From NCBI RefSeq assembly GCF_003675875.1, contig NZ_RCDI01000001.1, positions 434,001 through 498,000 of the forward strand: a DNA stretch of 64,000 bases, read 5' to 3'. Under the pieces are notes generated by a model. It saw only the letters and a program-made list of their open reading frames with translations. It was not told where the DNA came from and ran no database searches. Source of the stretch: Halostella limicola (GTDB lineage Archaea; Halobacteriota; Halobacteria; Halobacteriales; Natronoarchaeaceae). Position numbers and translations under genes: made by a program. The first letter of the stretch is position 1. Each line of letters begins with the position of its first letter. This document shows positions 29,831 to 54,008 of this stretch, piece after piece.

Positions 29831-29954
29831 ACGCGCAGTACTATCCGCAGGGTGTTGAGTTTACGCGTCTTCTGGGGCGCCCCTGAAGACGCAGTTGCTG
29901 TTTCCGACCCGTGACCGACGCGTACCGCCGGCAGGCGGTGGTACGGACGCGAAG

Positions 29955-34590: not shown

Positions 34591-36702
34591 CTATCGTGAA
34601 TGTAGTGCATCTGTGTCACGGATATCACTGAGAATAGCGTCCGCTTCACTGTGAGGGAGGCTTTCCGGCGCATATGCTGCACGCTCGTACGACTCGGTCA
34701 ATCGTTCGAGTGTATTGATTGCATCCTTGTCGAGACTGCTGGATTCACACGCCTGATAGAACTCCCAGTGAGTATGAACCGAGGGGAGATCAAGCGACTC
34801 CGAGAGGCGGTGGCGTATATCGCCGTACGCCAGTTCGATGGCTCTGTCACCATTGCCCTCCTCCAGTGCTGCTGTCGCAGTATCGAGGATGTCGTCCGGC
34901 CCAGACGGCTGCTCTGCCGTAGTCGAGGTACTGTCGGCTGACTCAACGGACGGAGTTCCAGTCGGGACCTCAGTCGTTCGGTGCCGCCACAGATAGATGC
35001 CGCCAACCGCGATCAGGACGGCGAGTGCGACGAACACAGAAATCCACCAGCCACTAGGGAGGAGTCCTTGGGTGGTGGATTCGTTATGAGTTGAACCCTG
35101 CTTGGTGATCTCGACAGCGATCATCTGTTCGGCTCGCGTGTCACCGATGTTCGTTTCGTCATCTACGTAGATGGCGCTAAGTCGCACCGACCCTGCTTCA
35201 AGCGCGGATGACGGTATATCCAGCACCAGGTCGTAAGATCCGTTTTCGTCAGTTCGGACGGTTTCAACGACCGAACCGTTGACACTGATCTCGATACTCT
35301 GATCTCCGACTGGAATGCCTTCGACCGTCGACAGAGTACCGGAAGCACGCACTTGATCTGATCCGACCATCGTCCCCGAGAGCGTCAGTGATGTATTCGT
35401 CTCGAGAACGGTGACGTTACGATCAGTCCCAGCAGGCCCGAGAGCGCGGTTCCGAAGTGGCAGCGACGCATTGATCTCCCTTGAGCCGGTCGGTACGTCC
35501 GCAGGGACCCGAGTCGTCAGCGAGAACGTGCCGTCCGTGTCGGTTCGCACTGCGCCTAGGCGTTCGTCACCGATACTAACGACGACGGGGATATCCCCGG
35601 CTGATATATTCTCAGCCGATACGGAGCCGGTAACTGTTACTGTTTCATTGTATTTGACAGCTGGCGGCACTCTATCGATCGATATAGCCGGTCGAACCTG
35701 CTTGACCTCCACCGGGACTGTCTGTTCCGTACCGAGATAGATGGAATCGACCTCGGGACGGAAATGAATCGACGCGTTCGGTTCGTCAAGTGACTGAATC
35801 GTGGGACGGAGCAGCACCGAGAAGTTCCCTGCCCCGTCGGTTGTCACCTGTTGTGTTCGGTTTCCGAATCGGAGCTCTACCGTTTCGCCGGTAAGCGTCG
35901 TCCCGTTGGCAGTCGTCACGCGTCCCGTCGCGACGAGCGGTTCCAAGAACGAGACGGTCGTCGACCGAACACTCACCGTTAGATCCGTTGCTAGGAACTC
36001 TTCACTACGGATCTCCCGCTGAGTCGCTGTGACATTTATCGTGACGTTCTCGATAATCTGCCCCTCTTCTCGGAGGTCGCTATCTGATGTGTTTGAGATG
36101 TTTTCGTAATCACGCAGTAGTGCCGATGACGTTGTATTCACGTCCTCCGAAAGCTCGTCCAATTGGCGGGCGAGCTGTCGGGCACCGCTTTCATTGCCGT
36201 TTTGCTTTGCTCGTTCGTAGCGTTCATGCGTTTCGCGGTACTCCTGCACCGACGAGATGTACTCATTCTGGTTCCGTTGTGCCCGATCAAACGTTGAACT
36301 TGGGTCGTTCTCGCCGTTATTACTCGTCTCACCCTCTACGTCGACGAGCTGGCCTAACCGATCAGAATAGTTATCTCCAACGTACTCGCGGGCAATGTCG
36401 TATTCGCCCTGACTGAGTTGGATCGTGCTGTCCGCAAGACGATCGCCAAGACGATTAGTCAACCACCGTTCGATACCGTCCGTATCACCGTCTTCTGCCG
36501 TTCTGTCTGGGTTCTCGTGCTGAGTCGAATTATTCTCCCCAGTAACCGTTGCAGATTCAGCAAACGATACTGGTGTATCCGTCGCAGTCGTATCGTGGAC
36601 CGGCTGATCGGCGGTGGCTACGACTGTACCCGGTCCGGCCGCTACGCAGATAAACACGGCAAGACCGAGAACGACAACCGTATTTCGGGGAGGGGAAATC
36701 AC
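34591..36702 (-). CDS. Secreted/membrane protein with Ig-like repeats and C-terminal DUF4129 domain (703 aa)
   Basis: It starts at GTG 36702 with a signal peptide (ISPPRNTVVVLGLAVFICVAAGPG). An outer, Asn/Thr/Ser-rich region includes a helical coiled segment (about residues 120-210) and three or four beta-sandwich repeats with GTLxT/VxTDxxGxF patterns (about 260-540), probably glycosylated (many NxS/T). One membrane helix follows (about 563-583, WWISVFVALAVLIAVGGIYLW). The cytoplasmic tail matches DUF4129: AYGDIRHRLSESL...THWEFYQAC...LTESYERAAYAPE. DUF4129 proteins normally sit with MoxR and DUF58 genes, as here. The start is supported by a TATA box at 36735-36741. Confidence 0.85.
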   Translation of the reverse strand: MISPPRNTVVVLGLAVFICVAAGPGTVVATADQPVHDTTATDTPVSFAESATVTGENNSTQHENPDRTAEDGDTDGIERWLTNRLGDRLADSTIQLSQGEYDIAREYVGDNYSDRLGQLVDVEGETSNNGENDPSSTFDRAQRNQNEYISSVQEYRETHERYERAKQNGNESGARQLARQLDELSEDVNTTSSALLRDYENISNTSDSDLREEGQIIENVTINVTATQREIRSEEFLATDLTVSVRSTTVSFLEPLVATGRVTTANGTTLTGETVELRFGNRTQQVTTDGAGNFSVLLRPTIQSLDEPNASIHFRPEVDSIYLGTEQTVPVEVKQVRPAISIDRVPPAVKYNETVTVTGSVSAENISAGDIPVVVSIGDERLGAVRTDTDGTFSLTTRVPADVPTGSREINASLPLRNRALGPAGTDRNVTVLETNTSLTLSGTMVGSDQVRASGTLSTVEGIPVGDQSIEISVNGSVVETVRTDENGSYDLVLDIPSSALEAGSVRLSAIYVDDETNIGDTRAEQMIAVEITKQGSTHNESTTQGLLPSGWWISVFVALAVLIAVGGIYLWRHRTTEVPTGTPSVESADSTSTTAEQPSGPDDILDTATAALEEGNGDRAIELAYGDIRHRLSESLDLPSVHTHWEFYQACESSSLDKDAINTLERLTESYERAAYAPESLPHSEADAILSDIRDTDALHSR

Positions 36703-36734
36703 TTCAGACCTACACGACAGGACACATGGGAGCG

Positions 36735-36741
36735 ATAAAAG
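36735..36741 (-). promoter_or_regulatory. TATA box for the DUF4129-type gene
   Basis: GACTTTTATC on the - strand lies about 33 bp before the GTG at 36702, consistent with a short or absent leader, and supports that start against the long upstream open frame. Confidence 0.5.
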
Positions 36742-36841
36742 TCCTTCCGTGTGAGTAATACGTTTGATCTTCGATATAGTTGTGAATGCCGGTCGGCAGC
36801 GACCAACATATTCAATTGTCAGTGGTTTCACTGTCTGTATA

Positions 36842-38305
36842 ATGCAAGCGACACGCCGGTTCTGGGCTCTTTCCCTTCTTGTCGCCTTTCTCTCGGTCGG
36901 TGGGGCTATCATCGGTGAGTTGGGCCTTCTGGTCGGCGGTGCAGTGCTCGGCGGCTGGTTACTCGCACAGCAGTTCCTCTTCCTCGATAACCTCCGAACG
37001 ACCGTTAACTCGCTCAGTATCGAACAGCACCTCTCTCGAACGACCGTAATGACGGGTGAAACGGTGACCACAACACTGGCGGTCGAACGTCCGATATCGT
37101 CGCCGCGACTCGATGTGGCCGTCGAAGCGTTGCCGCCGGTCGCTGCATCCGGCAACGTTTCCGAAGACAGAATCGCGGAGCTACAGACCGACGACCGAGA
37201 GGCGAAAACAACCTTCGACGTTTCAATGCCCGTCGCCGGCTCGTACGATTTTAGGCGTCCGGTTGTCACTGCGAGTGACGGACTCGGGCTGTTCCGAGCG
37301 ACCGTACCGATCGGGGCGATAAAATCGATAGTTGTCGAACCGCGTGCGCCGAGAGACGTGCACATTGGCGAAGGTGGATCACAAGTTGCGACCGCGATCG
37401 GCGAACATGCTGCCGACCAGACTGGTGCAGGGATCGAACCGGAGACTGTCCGACAGTACGTCCCGGGGGACGAAATCCGGAGTATCGACTGGAAGGCGAC
37501 CGCCCGATTGAACCACCCGCACGTTCGGGAGTTCGAACTCGAAACTGACCCGACTACTGCCCTGTTCGTCGACCACCGGGCAGCGATGGCTGACGGACCT
37601 GAAGGTGAAACGAAACTCGATTATGCGCGTGAGGTCGCCCTCGCGTTCGTCAACAGCGCGAAGACACTGAACAGTCGGATCGGACTGTACACGGTCGGCG
37701 ATGACGGCGTGATGAACAGCTATTCGCCAAGCGGATCAGCCGACCACTACTCTGCGATCCGCCACGCAATCAATGATCTCCGGCCGCCAGGACACGACGA
37801 ACGAGCGACGTGGCGCCGTCTCAGTCGCTCTCCTACCGAGGCCCGACGGGTCGGTCACATACTCGGAGATGATTCGACTCCCTTCGGCACGTCGTTGCGG
37901 CCGTTCTTTGAGGATCGATCGGAGTACGTCCACCGGGTCGACGAGGACCCTCTAGCAGCGACGGTACGTCAGCGGACGGCGCGTCTGAGCGATGCCATCT
38001 GGTCGGTCATCATCACTGACGACACGGATCGAGCGGAGGTTCGGGAAACGGTCAAACTCGCCCGGCGCGGGAATGGGAACGTCATGGTGTTTCTCACCCC
38101 GAGCGTGTTGTTCGAACCTGGCGGTCTCTCCGATCTCGAAGCGGCTTACAACGAATACTCGGAGTTTGAGACGTTCCGCCGCTCGCTGGCGAATCTCGAA
38201 CGCGTCTCGGCGTTCGAAGTCGGGCCGGCCAGTCGGTTGTCGGCGGTTCTTTCCGCTGGCGCCGTGCGGCGGAGTAGCTCCGCGAGAGGGAGGGGAACCT
38301 CATGA
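36842..38305 (+). CDS. DUF58-domain protein (487 aa)
   Basis: Two membrane helices at the N-terminus (about residues 5-45) are followed by a beta-sandwich-like region. The DUF58 core has EPETVRQYVPGDEIRSIDWKATARL, then HVREFELETDPTTALFVDHRAAM, which is the start of a vWA-like fold with acidic metal-site residues. DUF58 proteins pair with MoxR ATPases and are thought to present von Willebrand A-type domains for complex assembly. It is divergent from the DUF4129 gene and overlaps the next gene by 4 bp. Confidence 0.9.
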   Translation: MQATRRFWALSLLVAFLSVGGAIIGELGLLVGGAVLGGWLLAQQFLFLDNLRTTVNSLSIEQHLSRTTVMTGETVTTTLAVERPISSPRLDVAVEALPPVAASGNVSEDRIAELQTDDREAKTTFDVSMPVAGSYDFRRPVVTASDGLGLFRATVPIGAIKSIVVEPRAPRDVHIGEGGSQVATAIGEHAADQTGAGIEPETVRQYVPGDEIRSIDWKATARLNHPHVREFELETDPTTALFVDHRAAMADGPEGETKLDYAREVALAFVNSAKTLNSRIGLYTVGDDGVMNSYSPSGSADHYSAIRHAINDLRPPGHDERATWRRLSRSPTEARRVGHILGDDSTPFGTSLRPFFEDRSEYVHRVDEDPLAATVRQRTARLSDAIWSVIITDDTDRAEVRETVKLARRGNGNVMVFLTPSVLFEPGGLSDLEAAYNEYSEFETFRRSLANLERVSAFEVGPASRLSAVLSAGAVRRSSSARGRGTS

Positions 38306-48677: not shown

Positions 48678-48942
48678 ACCACTTCCCTCCTTTTGATTTT
48701 TGAGCAACTGCCCCGATGGGTTGTTGCGTCGGGCCAGTCTCTCACCGGCCTTGTAGTACCTTTAGACGTGTACTTTCGCATAGCCAACACATCATTGTGT
48801 GGTCGTATAACATTTACTCAATCTCTGCTCGCGGATTTTCAAAAATGATAACCAGAACGGGAGTGAGATCGCCTACGCCAATATAATTTCTATTACGTGT
48901 CTGATCCACAAACGTTATTCCGACGGTCCAATTGGGTCGACT
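48678..48942. other. Divergent promoter region between two surface-protein genes
   Basis: An AT-rich 265 bp region with no gene. It must hold the promoters of the PGF-pre-PGF operon (leftward) and the Thr-rich surface protein (rightward). AT-rich elements lie near 48770-48810 and 48880-48915, but I could not assign TATA boxes securely. Confidence 0.5.
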
Positions 48943-50061: not shown

Positions 50062-51264
50062 ATGACCGACGTTCGGGCGTGGAAACTGTTGCTGCCGGCG
50101 CCCATTCGCTCTCTCCCCGCAGACCTTGCTGCAGTGGTCGGCCTCGTCGCACTGACGAACATCGCGGTTCTGACACCCGTTGTCCGAGAGACGCCCCTTC
50201 GCGTCGTCGTGGGGCTACCGTTCGTGCTCTTTATCCCCGGGTATGCATTCATCGCTGCCCTCTTTCCGGAAGCAGGAGAACCGCCTGTCGATGAGGACGA
50301 CACCGATGCCGACGGCCGGATCGAACGCATGGCCGACCGGGGCATCGACGGGATCGAGCGCGTCGCCCTGTCGTTCGGCTTGAGCATCGCCATTGTCCCG
50401 TTGATCGGTCTCGTCCTCAACTTCACACCGTGGGGGATCCGCCTCGTCCCGGTTCTCCTCTCGGTTACTGGGTTCACGCTTGCCGCGACGGCTGTCGCCG
50501 CCCAGCGGCGCTTGGCTCTCCCGGAAGACGAACGCTTTCGGGTTCCGTATCGAGCGTGGCTCGCGGCAGGACGCTCGGAACTCTTCAGTCCGGATACTCG
50601 CGCCGACGCGGTTTTGAACGTCGTGCTCGTCCTGAGTCTGATCCTTGCGGTCGGGAGCGTGGGGTACGCAGTCGCCGTCCCCCAGCAGGGCGAGTCGTTC
50701 TCCGAGTTCTACCTCCTCACCGAGAACGAAACCGGCGAGCTCGTCGCCGACGGCTACCCGTCGAACGTCACCAGTGGGGAAAGCGAAGAACTCGTCGTCG
50801 GGGTGGGGAACCACGAGCACGAGCCGACCACGTACGAGGTGGTGGTTCAACTCCAGCGAGTCGAGACGACAAATAACTCGACGCAAGTGTTGGAGCGCGA
50901 GGATCTGACTCGCTTCTCGACCGGCGAGATCGATCACAACGAGACGTGGCACCACAAACACAACGTCTCGCCGACGATGACTGGCGAGGGTCTGCGACTG
51001 ACGTACATGCTGTACCGAGATGAGGCGCCTGACGAGCCGACGGTCGAGACCGCGTACCGAGAGTTGCATCTCTGGGTGAACGTCTCCGAGTCCGACACTG
51101 GATCAGCAGCTTCAGCACGGGCAGTACATTCGTTCACGAGCAATCCTCTGTCAACACCGTCGGTACAGTCTACTTCTGGTCTAGTTGGGGCACCGGTTGC
51201 GCCTGCTGGCGATACGAGTCGTATACATTCATCGCCCAGTCGACCGCTGCTTCGCGCTCGTTGA
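50062..51264 (+). CDS. DUF1616 membrane protein (400 aa)
   Basis: The N-terminal half holds four membrane helices with the DUF1616 pattern VVVGLPFVLFIPGYAFIAALFPE and RVALSFGLSIAIVPLIGLVLN. A fifth helix (AVLNVVLVLSLILAVGSVGYAVAVP) leads to an extracytoplasmic domain with YLLTENETGELVADGYPSNVTSGE, ending YRELHLWVNVSES. The last ~50 residues (from about 352) do not look like the family: they are Ser/Pro/Arg-rich and run antisense into the regulator gene at 51170. The natural end may have been lost and replaced. DUF1616 proteins are often linked to surface-protein and glycosylation genes. Confidence 0.82.
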   Translation: MTDVRAWKLLLPAPIRSLPADLAAVVGLVALTNIAVLTPVVRETPLRVVVGLPFVLFIPGYAFIAALFPEAGEPPVDEDDTDADGRIERMADRGIDGIERVALSFGLSIAIVPLIGLVLNFTPWGIRLVPVLLSVTGFTLAATAVAAQRRLALPEDERFRVPYRAWLAAGRSELFSPDTRADAVLNVVLVLSLILAVGSVGYAVAVPQQGESFSEFYLLTENETGELVADGYPSNVTSGESEELVVGVGNHEHEPTTYEVVVQLQRVETTNNSTQVLEREDLTRFSTGEIDHNETWHHKHNVSPTMTGEGLRLTYMLYRDEAPDEPTVETAYRELHLWVNVSESDTGSAASARAVHSFTSNPLSTPSVQSTSGLVGAPVAPAGDTSRIHSSPSRPLLRAR

Positions 51265-51952
51265 CGAGCACGCCGCCGATGCCGCTGTTCTCGTCGTAGA
51301 CCACGAGACAGCTGTACGTTCGGTCGACGTGCTCGGCGATAATGAGCCCGTACGGCACGTCGTCGATAAGATACGGTCGCAGGTTGCCGACGTCGAGCAG
51401 TTCTGTCAACCAGTCGTACGCCTCACGAACGTGATCGTACACCTCCTCGCGAAACACGATCTCTGCGGTTGCACCGCCCGAGATGGCATCATGGAGCGCG
51501 TCGGCTGTTTTCGGCGCCGCGTGTGCCCGCGAAATACCCCGGAGGCGCTCGCTCTCACGGATGATGTTGGAGAGGATGGTCACCGGAACGTGGGGGGCGG
51601 GATCTTCGGCGACGAAGATGTCTGCATCACGAACAAGATCGAGACTGATCGGCCCATCCCCGGGGAGGAGGGCGAGAAGGTCGGCCGCAGCCATGACGGC
51701 GACGACGCCGTCCCTGTAGCGGACGTACTGTTCATAAAGCAGTCGTCCACTCACAGTGACTCGATATCCCTCATCGTCATACTCGATGAGTCCCAACTGT
51801 TCAAGGTCCCAGATGGCTCGGTTAACGGTCGACCGTGAGACGTTAACTAGGTCCACGAGATCACGTTTGTTCGATGGATTTCCGTCTAACGCTTTGAGGA
51901 ACTTGACCCGCTTGAAGACGGTTTCCATCACCTCACGTGGACCAGGACTCAT
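51170..51952 (-). CDS. HTH regulator, FilR1/DUF1724-type (260 aa)
   Basis: An N-terminal winged HTH (KRDLVDLVNVSRSTVNRAIWDLEQLGLIEYDDEGYRVTVSGRLLYEQY in overlap; recognition helix about residues 34-46). The C-terminal ~170 residues form the FilR1-type domain (IFVAEDPAPHVPV..., RLRGISRAHAAPKTADALHD, AEIVFREEVYDHV, YGLIIAEHVDRTYSCLVVYDENSGIGGVLVN). It is paralogous to the gene at 52122 and shares its promoter arrangement. The 3' end overlaps the DUF1616 gene by 95 bp, convergent. Confidence 0.9.
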   Translation of the reverse strand: MSPGPREVMETVFKRVKFLKALDGNPSNKRDLVDLVNVSRSTVNRAIWDLEQLGLIEYDDEGYRVTVSGRLLYEQYVRYRDGVVAVMAAADLLALLPGDGPISLDLVRDADIFVAEDPAPHVPVTILSNIIRESERLRGISRAHAAPKTADALHDAISGGATAEIVFREEVYDHVREAYDWLTELLDVGNLRPYLIDDVPYGLIIAEHVDRTYSCLVVYDENSGIGGVLVNEREAAVDWAMNVYDSYRQQAQPVPQLDQK

Positions 51953-51960
51953 TGTTAAAC

Positions 51961-51996
51961 TTCCACAGTATTATTTCCACAGTAACTTCTTTATGC
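51961..51996 (-). promoter_or_regulatory. Promoter and probable operator of the 51170 regulator
   Basis: On the - strand, GCATAAAG (51989-51996) serves as TATA box, followed by AGTTACTGT about 3 bp downstream. The segment TTCCACAGTA occurs twice as a direct repeat (51961-51970 and 51975-51984 on the + strand). The AGTTACTGT core and its distance from the TATA box recur at the paralogous gene (52923-52945). Sites just downstream of the TATA box suggest repression, probably autoregulation. Confidence 0.6.
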
Positions 51997-52121
51997 TTTT
52001 TCCGTATCCCTAGTCACCAGATTTCGGGTAATTTACTAATAAGAATCCGCATTTCGTACAACTCGTAAGACGAAGATCGGTCGAACAAAGCGGGATGGTA
52101 AGTGGAGGGGGAAAGGAATAC

Positions 52122-52901
52122 TCACTGTGCCTCACGGTCGGGAACCCGCCGGGCCTTCTCTCGAAACGCTTCGACTGTGGCCGTCGCCCACTCAATCGCT
52201 GCGTCGGTATCGTTGACGATCACTCCCATTACACTGGTATCGTCGTAGACGATCAGACAGGCGACCGTCTCGTCACCGTGGTCGGCGATCGCCAGCCCGT
52301 AGGGGAGGTCGTCCGTAACGTACGGTCGATAGTCCCCCGATTCGACGCGGTCGGCTACCCAGTCGTACGCCGACAGAATGTGTTCGTACACCTCCTCGCG
52401 AAACACGATCTCGACGGTGCCGCCGTTTGTTATCACGTTATGCAGCGCGTCATCCGTTTTGGCAGCGGCATGCGTTCGCGAAATGCCACGGATCCGGTCG
52501 GCGCCACGGATTGCATCAGTGAGGGTGGTTGCCGGGATGTGGGAGGCGGGGTTCTCGGCCGTAACAACGTCGGCACCGCGAAGAAAGTCGACGCTGAGCG
52601 GTGCAGCCGCCGGTATGAATTGGAGGAGGCTGTTGGCGTCGACGATGGCCCTTACCGCCGTTTGGTATCGGCTGTACTGGTCGTACAGAAGATGGCCGCT
52701 GACTGTTAGCTGGTATCCGCCATCGCGGTATCCAACGAGTCCACACTGTTCGAGGTCCCTAATCGCACGATTGACAGTCGAACGAGACACACCAATGCGA
52801 TCCACGAGGTCTCGTTTCTCCGCGGGATCATCTTTCAACGACTCGAGAAACTCAACCCGCTTGAACACCGTGTCCATCAGATGCCGCGGGTCCTGACTCA
52901 T
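52122..52901 (-). CDS. HTH regulator, FilR1/DUF1724-type, paralogue (259 aa)
   Basis: It has the same architecture as the gene at 51170: HTH with KRDLVDRIGVSRSTVNRAIRDLEQCGL, then VVTAENPASHIPATTL, RIRGISRTHAAAKTDDALHN, VEIVFREEVYEHILSAYDWV, and IADHGDETVACLIVYDDTSVMGVIVND. The two proteins align end to end at roughly half identity, so they arose by tandem duplication. The recognition helix (SRSTVNRAI) is identical in both, hence they probably bind the same DNA sequence. Confidence 0.9.
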   Translation of the reverse strand: MSQDPRHLMDTVFKRVEFLESLKDDPAEKRDLVDRIGVSRSTVNRAIRDLEQCGLVGYRDGGYQLTVSGHLLYDQYSRYQTAVRAIVDANSLLQFIPAAAPLSVDFLRGADVVTAENPASHIPATTLTDAIRGADRIRGISRTHAAAKTDDALHNVITNGGTVEIVFREEVYEHILSAYDWVADRVESGDYRPYVTDDLPYGLAIADHGDETVACLIVYDDTSVMGVIVNDTDAAIEWATATVEAFREKARRVPDREAQ

Positions 52902-52922
52902 CGTTTTCTCTCCGGAGATAAT

Positions 52923-52945
52923 GTTACTACAGTAACTGGTTTAGG
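52923..52945 (-). promoter_or_regulatory. Promoter with perfect palindrome, operator of the 52122 regulator
   Basis: GTTACT-AC-AGTAAC (52923-52936) is an exact inverted repeat. On the - strand it lies directly downstream of a TATA-like CCTAAACC (52938-52945), about 25-35 bp before the start at 52901. The half-site AGTTACTGT also occurs at the promoter of the paralogue. Confidence 0.65.
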
Positions 52946-53316
52946 CCTTTTCCATTGTCGGACAGGCTAACGTGTGGTGAATTATCTAGTTTAGTATCAG
53001 AGTCCAAACTAGCTCTTCTATTGCTTCTGTGATGACAGATAGCGTTTTTTCGCAGTAGCGGTGCCACCGTTGGCCCACCGAATTGTGTCTATCTTCAGCA
53101 GGGGCGGTCTCGCTGATATCACAACCACTCCTAACGAGTACCTTTGCGAGGTGGCCTGCTCTCGGTCGCCTCTACGGTGAGGGCATGACTGGCCCATCTG
53201 TGTACGGTAGCCCAGCGGCCTATTCAGGTGTTAGTGGCTGCTTTGATCGTGCCCGTCGATAGCTTGGTGTGTCCTACAGTGTATCGCTCGGTAGCTTCTG
53301 ACTGTAGCGCCGCTCG
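52946..53316. other. Intergenic region, no gene seen
   Basis: No open frame with protein-like character and no RNA gene is recognised in these ~370 bp. Base composition is mixed, with T-rich runs near 53041. It may be decayed sequence, but no parent could be recognised. Confidence 0.5.
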
Positions 53317-53586
53317 CTACTCCGAGGCGTCATCGGTCGGCGTCACTGACACCGTAATCCCGTCTGGCAGCGCTCCGTCTCCGTAGAGCGCGGCGTATCG
53401 ATGCAGGTTCCGCACTTCGATCACGCGTCCATCGATGCCGAGATCCTTGTCCGCGACGTCGACACGCTTGCCGTTCGGGTGTTGCACCGTCACCCGATAG
53501 TCCTCGAGGGAAGGTTCCTCGGTGAATTTCACGCGCAGGATCCTGGCAGGGCCCGCGTTGGTAGATGACGGCGTCGGTTCAGTCAT
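53317..53586 (-). CDS. Small haloarchaeal hypothetical protein (89 aa)
   Basis: A disordered N-terminus (TEPTPSSTNAGPA) precedes a small beta-rich domain: RILRVKFTEEPSLEDYRVTVQHPNGKRVDVADKD, then GRVIEVRNLHRYAALYGDG and a final VSVTPTDDASE. Acidic, no membrane segment. An AT-rich element (TTTATTATC at 53594-53602 on the + strand) lies just upstream. No family is recognised. It stands alone in a sparse region. Confidence 0.6.
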   Translation of the reverse strand: MTEPTPSSTNAGPARILRVKFTEEPSLEDYRVTVQHPNGKRVDVADKDLGIDGRVIEVRNLHRYAALYGDGALPDGITVSVTPTDDASE

Positions 53587-54008
53587 AAACGGTCTTTATT
53601 ATCTATGATTAGTAAACTATCCAATAAGTGTGCTGGTCATACAGGGCGTTATCGGCTCTCGGTCCCGTTTGACAGCACCGTTCTCCTCGCTTGGCGACCC
53701 ACCGCTATAGTGGCACTAACGGCCATCGTCGCCGCAGAAGTTACGGAACCTTGCGTGCTGCGACTTCGGAGAAGCGACTGTCGACGATTTCTCGTGGTTA
53801 CTCCTGCGTCGCTACTATGTTCCACAGTGACTATTGGCGGCGTCTCGCTGCGTACCGCGTTCGCGCCGTGACTCGTTTGACCACTCACTGAGGTAGGGCA
53901 TTGCCACATCTAGGTCAGTAATGTGGCGGCGCCCCCGTGCTCGCTGTCCAGCGTGACGGGAGTAGTCGTCGAATAACAATTAGGCCGTCCGGCAGACGTA
54001 CTGCTAAC
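53587..54008. other. Intergenic region, no gene seen
   Basis: Open frames on both strands in this 420 bp stretch are shadows of one another and have no protein-like features. The last ~60 bases contain AT-rich sequence (GAATAACAATTAGG, about 53971-53984) that may be the epimerase promoter, 25-38 bp before its ATG. Confidence 0.45.

Follow-up and report, generated by a model that had tools for sequence, protein, structure and literature searches.

Our analysis reveals that two tandem regulator genes of Halostella limicola, here called A and B, carry an identical 9-bp element, AGTTACTGT, directly downstream of the BRE/TATA-like block in their promoters, and that this element overlaps a direct repeat in front of A and an inverted repeat in front of B. 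On this sequence pattern we judge the chances to be evenly balanced that A and B each repress their own promoter and that of the other through a shared putative operator. Such regulation would be of an ordinary, local kind, with no sign so far of a reach to the neighbouring surface genes. In the following, the window means the whole stretch of 64,000 nucleotides that was analysed, and coordinates refer to it unless a locus is named.

The two regulators and their promoters

Regulator A (51170-51952, reverse strand, 260 aa) and regulator B (52122-52901, reverse strand, 259 aa) appear as tandem genes in the ORF list of the window. Both combine a winged helix of the HVO_A0261_N family (PF25213, cut-off 35 bits; 58.2 bits for A and 69 for B) with a PLD-like FilR1_middle domain (PF08350, cut-off 27 bits; 92.7 and 85.7 bits), while the TrmB winged helix PF01978 stays under its cut-off in B (24.6 vs 25.6 bits) and is not listed for A. 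No receiver (REC) family is found among the Pfam matches of A and B at E up to 0.001. B is a paralogue of A, at a protein identity of 54% in the alignment, and the description of the pair in the earlier note as near-identical repressors is therefore wrong. An ORF of 89 aa upstream of B (53317-53586) matches neither a Pfam nor an NCBIfam family at E up to 0.001.

Exact copies of AGTTACTGT are located at 51979-51987 and 52929-52937, both on the reverse strand and with no other in the window, and begin 35 bp (A) and 36 bp (B) before the ATG. The TATA-like element of A is CATAAAG (51989-51995, starting at -43), and that of B is CCTAAAC/CTAAACC (about 52938-52945, starting at -44); each belongs to a BRE/TATA-like block on the reverse strand (51988-52006 in A, 52938-52956 in B), in which the TATA role is presumed and 13 of 19 positions agree between the two promoters. 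The candidate operator region of A (51961-51987, reverse strand) comprises AGTTACTGT and a 10-bp direct repeat, written as TTCCACAGTA or TACTGTGGAA, which stands at 51961-51970 and again at 51975-51984 with a spacing of 14. The candidate operator region of B (52923-52937, reverse strand) is AGTTACTGTAGTAAC, which includes the perfect inverted repeat GTTACT-N2-AGTAAC (52923-52936). Thus the earlier note was right in placing a shared element after the TATA box at a similar distance in both promoters, and its contrast of a perfect palindrome in one promoter (B) with a direct repeat 14 bp apart in the other (A) is borne out as well. TACT is present in both promoters, and in B it forms a TACT/AGTA pair.

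The operator window is identical between A and B at 16 of 25 positions, while the upstream flanks agree at 13 of 40 and 13 of 35, and the shared block has thus been retained while its surroundings diverged. None of 20000 dinucleotide shuffles equalled the best ungapped similarity between the two promoters within 62 bp, and 0.32% of them gave an identical run of 9 bp. The 10-bp direct repeat of A is unlikely to be a product of chance (0.12% of 10000 shuffles). The palindrome of B with its 6-bp arms arises by chance in 7.2% of cases with a spacer of up to 10 and in 2.4% with a spacer of up to 2, so that taken alone it is weak.

Occurrence of the element across the genome

The strict pattern AGTTACTGTNGNAA occurs at two places in the 4.1 Mb genome, and both are the promoters of A and B. 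The looser versions are near or below their reversed controls or too few, and no clear recurrence is seen: with up to 2 mismatches, GTTACTGTNGNAAC gives 119 sites against 103 in the control, and AGTTACTGTGGAA, the 13-bp operator word of A, gives 22 against 38; TACTGTRGWAA gives 4 against 2, too few to exceed chance, and TTACTN{1,4}AGTAA gives 2 palindromic sites against 1. Nine further sites match GTTACTGTNGNAAC with one mismatch, eight of them inside some mechanically called ORF of at least 90 aa, not all of which are real genes, and two of the nine are near a possible gene start, 41 bp from it in L032 and 51 bp in L035 (a possible secreted protein). Moreover, when the promoters of all 27 genomic PF25213 matches were scanned, a set that includes distant winged-helix proteins and 15 matches below the cut-off, AGTTACTGT with fewer than two mismatches was found at A and B alone.

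The sole other match in the genome to AGTTACTGTGGAA with at most one mismatch is AGTCACTGTGGAA at 53820-53832 on the reverse strand, in the gap 0.9 kb upstream of B. By reading, no TATA-like element or gene start is found at a fitting distance from it; its role as a third copy is doubtful, and it may be a remnant or a chance match.

A gene for a BMP-type lipoprotein (L156) was considered as a target, with TTACTGTAGAGTAA just upstream of it (positions 1502-1515 of that locus). Its orthologue in genome G002, 95% identical, keeps the site with one change, though G002 has no close orthologue of A or B (best E 2.3e-37), and the counterpart in G001 is without the site. The site therefore lends no support. 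Separately, TACTGTGGAAA (L139, 1501-1511) stands immediately in front of an ATG from which a small membrane protein is predicted; counts of its pattern across the genome are too low to rise above chance.

Relatives and distribution

Haloarchaeal genomes repeatedly contain regulators with a FilR1 middle domain, and in the present genome 7 relatives of B are found at E up to 0.001, A and B included. A and B are like other HVO_A0261_N/FilR1_middle regulators of haloarchaea in carrying both domains above the curated cut-offs, here as a tandem pair; they differ in that their subfamily was found only in two genomes of the genus among 392 sampled from the order. Three loci reach E < 1e-148, namely A, B and one gene of the second genome (G004), and the next best has 3.3e-58. 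A search of genome contigs returned no locus with a two-row query and one with three rows; its named record is Halostella pelagica DL-M4, whose ORFs mirror those of G004. No match was found on viral contigs, and in 60 plasmid records each best place is below 60% identity.

The single regulator of G004 (L008) is the sole syntenic orthologue. By blastp, A and B are 54.5% identical, A and L008 55.1%, and B and L008 52.7%, which puts all three at about the same distance from one another. The tree pairs B with L008 at a support of 93/68, which is too weak for dating the duplication, and the branching of the three is not firm. At -43 a TATA-like element is retained in L008, whose BRE/TATA part agrees with A at 13 of 19 positions and with B at 10 of 19. 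In the operator window L008 agrees with A at 9 of 25 positions and with B at 10 of 25, and is without the operator.

L003 and L004 (G000:C2:794077-795679) form another tandem pair of this regulator family in the present genome, and they are also paired in G001. Within the 80 bp before either gene no AGTTACTGT is found at up to one mismatch.

The recognition helix

In the model of B the recognition helix covers residues 40-52 (pLDDT 93.8), and it reads RSTVNRAIxDLEQ in both proteins. The earlier note called these helices identical, which holds for 12 of the 13 residues; residue 48 is W in A and R in B. The helix was compared over 35 aligned members, a chosen subset of the fetched loci for which alone the following counts hold; multiple entries for a single place, members that were cut short or weak, L061 (with an in-frame stop), L067, L017 and L021 were among those left aside. 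S39, R40 and T42 are invariant in this set, and SRSTV is read in 30 of the 35, some of them without the operator. The longer VSRSTVN is shared by 6 of the 35, that is A, B, L008, L003, L005 and L014. The last four have no AGTTACTGT at the promoter position: the best similar words up to 130 bp from the start of the match carry 2-3 mismatches in L003, L005 and L014, and L008 has a word with one mismatch about 150 bp upstream. The same helix start thus fails to predict the operator, and the argument from the helices, on which the proposed cross-regulation had partly leaned, carries little weight.

Predicted fold and known systems

Among PDB entries, TrmBL2 is the top-ranked match to the model of B (Foldseek E 1.1e-9, TM 0.45; VIA Z 15.3, rmsd 17.7 over 200), and the high rmsd indicates that the domains are placed differently. 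TrmB comes next (E 2.9e-6), with its sugar-binding domain at Z 14.3 and rmsd 2.5 over 131. The model thus matches TrmBL2 and TrmB over both the winged helix and the PLD-like C-terminal domain, a likeness of fold only. The match is unspecific, since PLD-type proteins such as FAM83B, NucT and Nuc fit the second domain about equally (Z 13.7-15.1) and MarR/ArsR proteins fit the winged helix with Z values as high as 12.6; moreover, no TrmB is among the 22 PDB sequences matched by sequence at E up to 0.1. On the best reading, A and B are TrmB-like proteins with a winged helix and a PLD-like FilR1 domain.

In a review (PMC4158304), the sites of the TrmB family are given as TACT-N3-AGTA, a lone TACT and TACT-N7-8-GAGTA, and two repeats of ATAATACT stand in the last column of a table, which we read as that of MalR. 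Promoter A holds one ATAATACT, which contains one of its repeated TACTs. Inverted TACT repeats, a single half-site and direct repeats are all among the listed sites, so that the difference in symmetry between A and B has a precedent. The TrmBL1/Tgr site contains no TACT, and TrmBL1/Tgr as well as the Halobacterium TrmB are described as repressing from just downstream of BRE/TATA, where they impede polymerase recruitment (PMC4158304). A and B resemble TrmB, TrmBL2 and MalR in predicted fold, putative TACT half-sites, promoter position and the occurrence of inverted and direct arrangements, but differ in their PF01978 scores and in the spacing in B, which is N2 rather than N3 or N7-8.

The other system for comparison is FilR1 of Methanosaeta harundinacea, which shares the middle domain and, according to PMC3991700, binds its own promoter. 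It differs in belonging to a two-component system, in a receiver domain (PMC3991700; PMC5847659), which is not listed for A and B, and in its reported up-regulation. In the open-access literature, to which our search was largely confined, no paper names HVO_A0261, and among the papers that name FilR1 (5) or DUF1724/PF08350 (2), no title concerns an operator of these haloarchaeal regulators.

Proposed mechanism and alternatives

The mechanism we propose is as follows. A and B, as diverged tandem paralogues, would each probably bind TACT half-sites as a dimer; these half-sites lie between the TATA box and the inferred transcription start, and their occupancy would block the recruitment of RNA polymerase. 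Since the element is present in both promoters, each protein would repress itself and the other, provided that their specificity has not diverged. In B the inverted arrangement would accommodate one dimer on a symmetric site, while the tandem repeat of A may offer two weaker or half-occupied sites. Auto- and cross-repression is the best reading of the shared element, its repressor-type position and the diverged flanks, because the sites fit the range described for the TrmB family and FilR1 is reported to bind its own promoter. We set its chances at about even, and the points against it are that the orthologue and the other VSRSTVN members are without the operator, that the palindrome of B taken alone is near chance, that residue 48 differs, that the fold match is unspecific, and that the TrmBL1/Tgr site is without TACT and FilR1 is reported to up-regulate.

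A first alternative, to which we give a minor though appreciable share of belief, takes the shared block for a relic of the duplication that has persisted chiefly for its core-promoter function (BRE, TATA and start region) and contains no operator. The two promoters are indeed paralogous, and the BRE/TATA part is common to the orthologue L008 as well; however, the 9-mer common to A and B is placed beyond the TATA block, in a part where L008 is not conserved, and the direct repeat of A is improbable by chance (0.0012).

It is also unlikely that a third regulator binds both promoters and controls A and B, which would then act elsewhere at other sites. The orthologue and the members with the same helix start are without the site, and the site may thus have no tie to the A/B family; the Halobacterium TrmB, moreover, is reported in PMC4158304 to bind in front of five transcription factor genes, among them its own. 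Nevertheless, a strict site found only at the promoters of A and B would be odd for a global regulator, and by reading the motif TACT-N7-8-GAGTA, as given there for the Halobacterium TrmB, is in neither promoter.

More speculative, and in our view rather doubtful, is an extension of auto- and cross-repression, in which A and B would form a switch of mutual and self-repression whose half-site was rearranged after the duplication into an inverted repeat in one promoter and a direct repeat in the other. If so, A and B would differ in cooperativity or in the response to a putative ligand while sharing a purely local regulon.

The neighbouring surface genes

The weakest proposal, which we regard as very improbable, is that A and B control the neighbouring surface and DUF1616 genes through the shared motif, as the earlier note had suggested for the surface cluster to their left. 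It is true that the DUF1616 gene adjoins a regulator of the A/B subfamily in two genomes, here and in G004. However, no AGTTACTGT with at most one mismatch is found between 35644 and 51752 in the window, including the starts at 48707, 48943 and 50062. To the left of 35644 there are four words with one mismatch, two of them in one large ORF (34591-37365), one in overlapping ORFs, and the fourth, AGTTGCTGT (29893-29901), 63 bp ahead of the start of an ORF whose reading suggests an AsnC/Lrp regulator; by ORF reading none of the four precedes a surface gene start. Moreover, in genome G003 the DUF1616 gene (73% identical) and the surface gene (matched by reading) stand beside an epimerase-like gene; the 4.1 kb covered there contain no regulator, and the genome has no close relative of A or B (best E 3.2e-42). 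Together with the lack of a clear recurrence of the motif, these results do not support the control of the surface cluster, and what is confirmed of the sequence observation is real but modest.

A candidate operator in two natural arrangements, combined with the likeness to TrmB, provides a testable entry to the way in which FilR1-domain proteins read DNA. In a related subfamily of other genomes, CAGTTT/AAACTG arms are seen by eye around a TATA-like stretch roughly 50 bp ahead of where the match begins; they are perfect in L064 and L072, carry one change in L060 and are degenerate in L061, and they may themselves be the operator of that subfamily.
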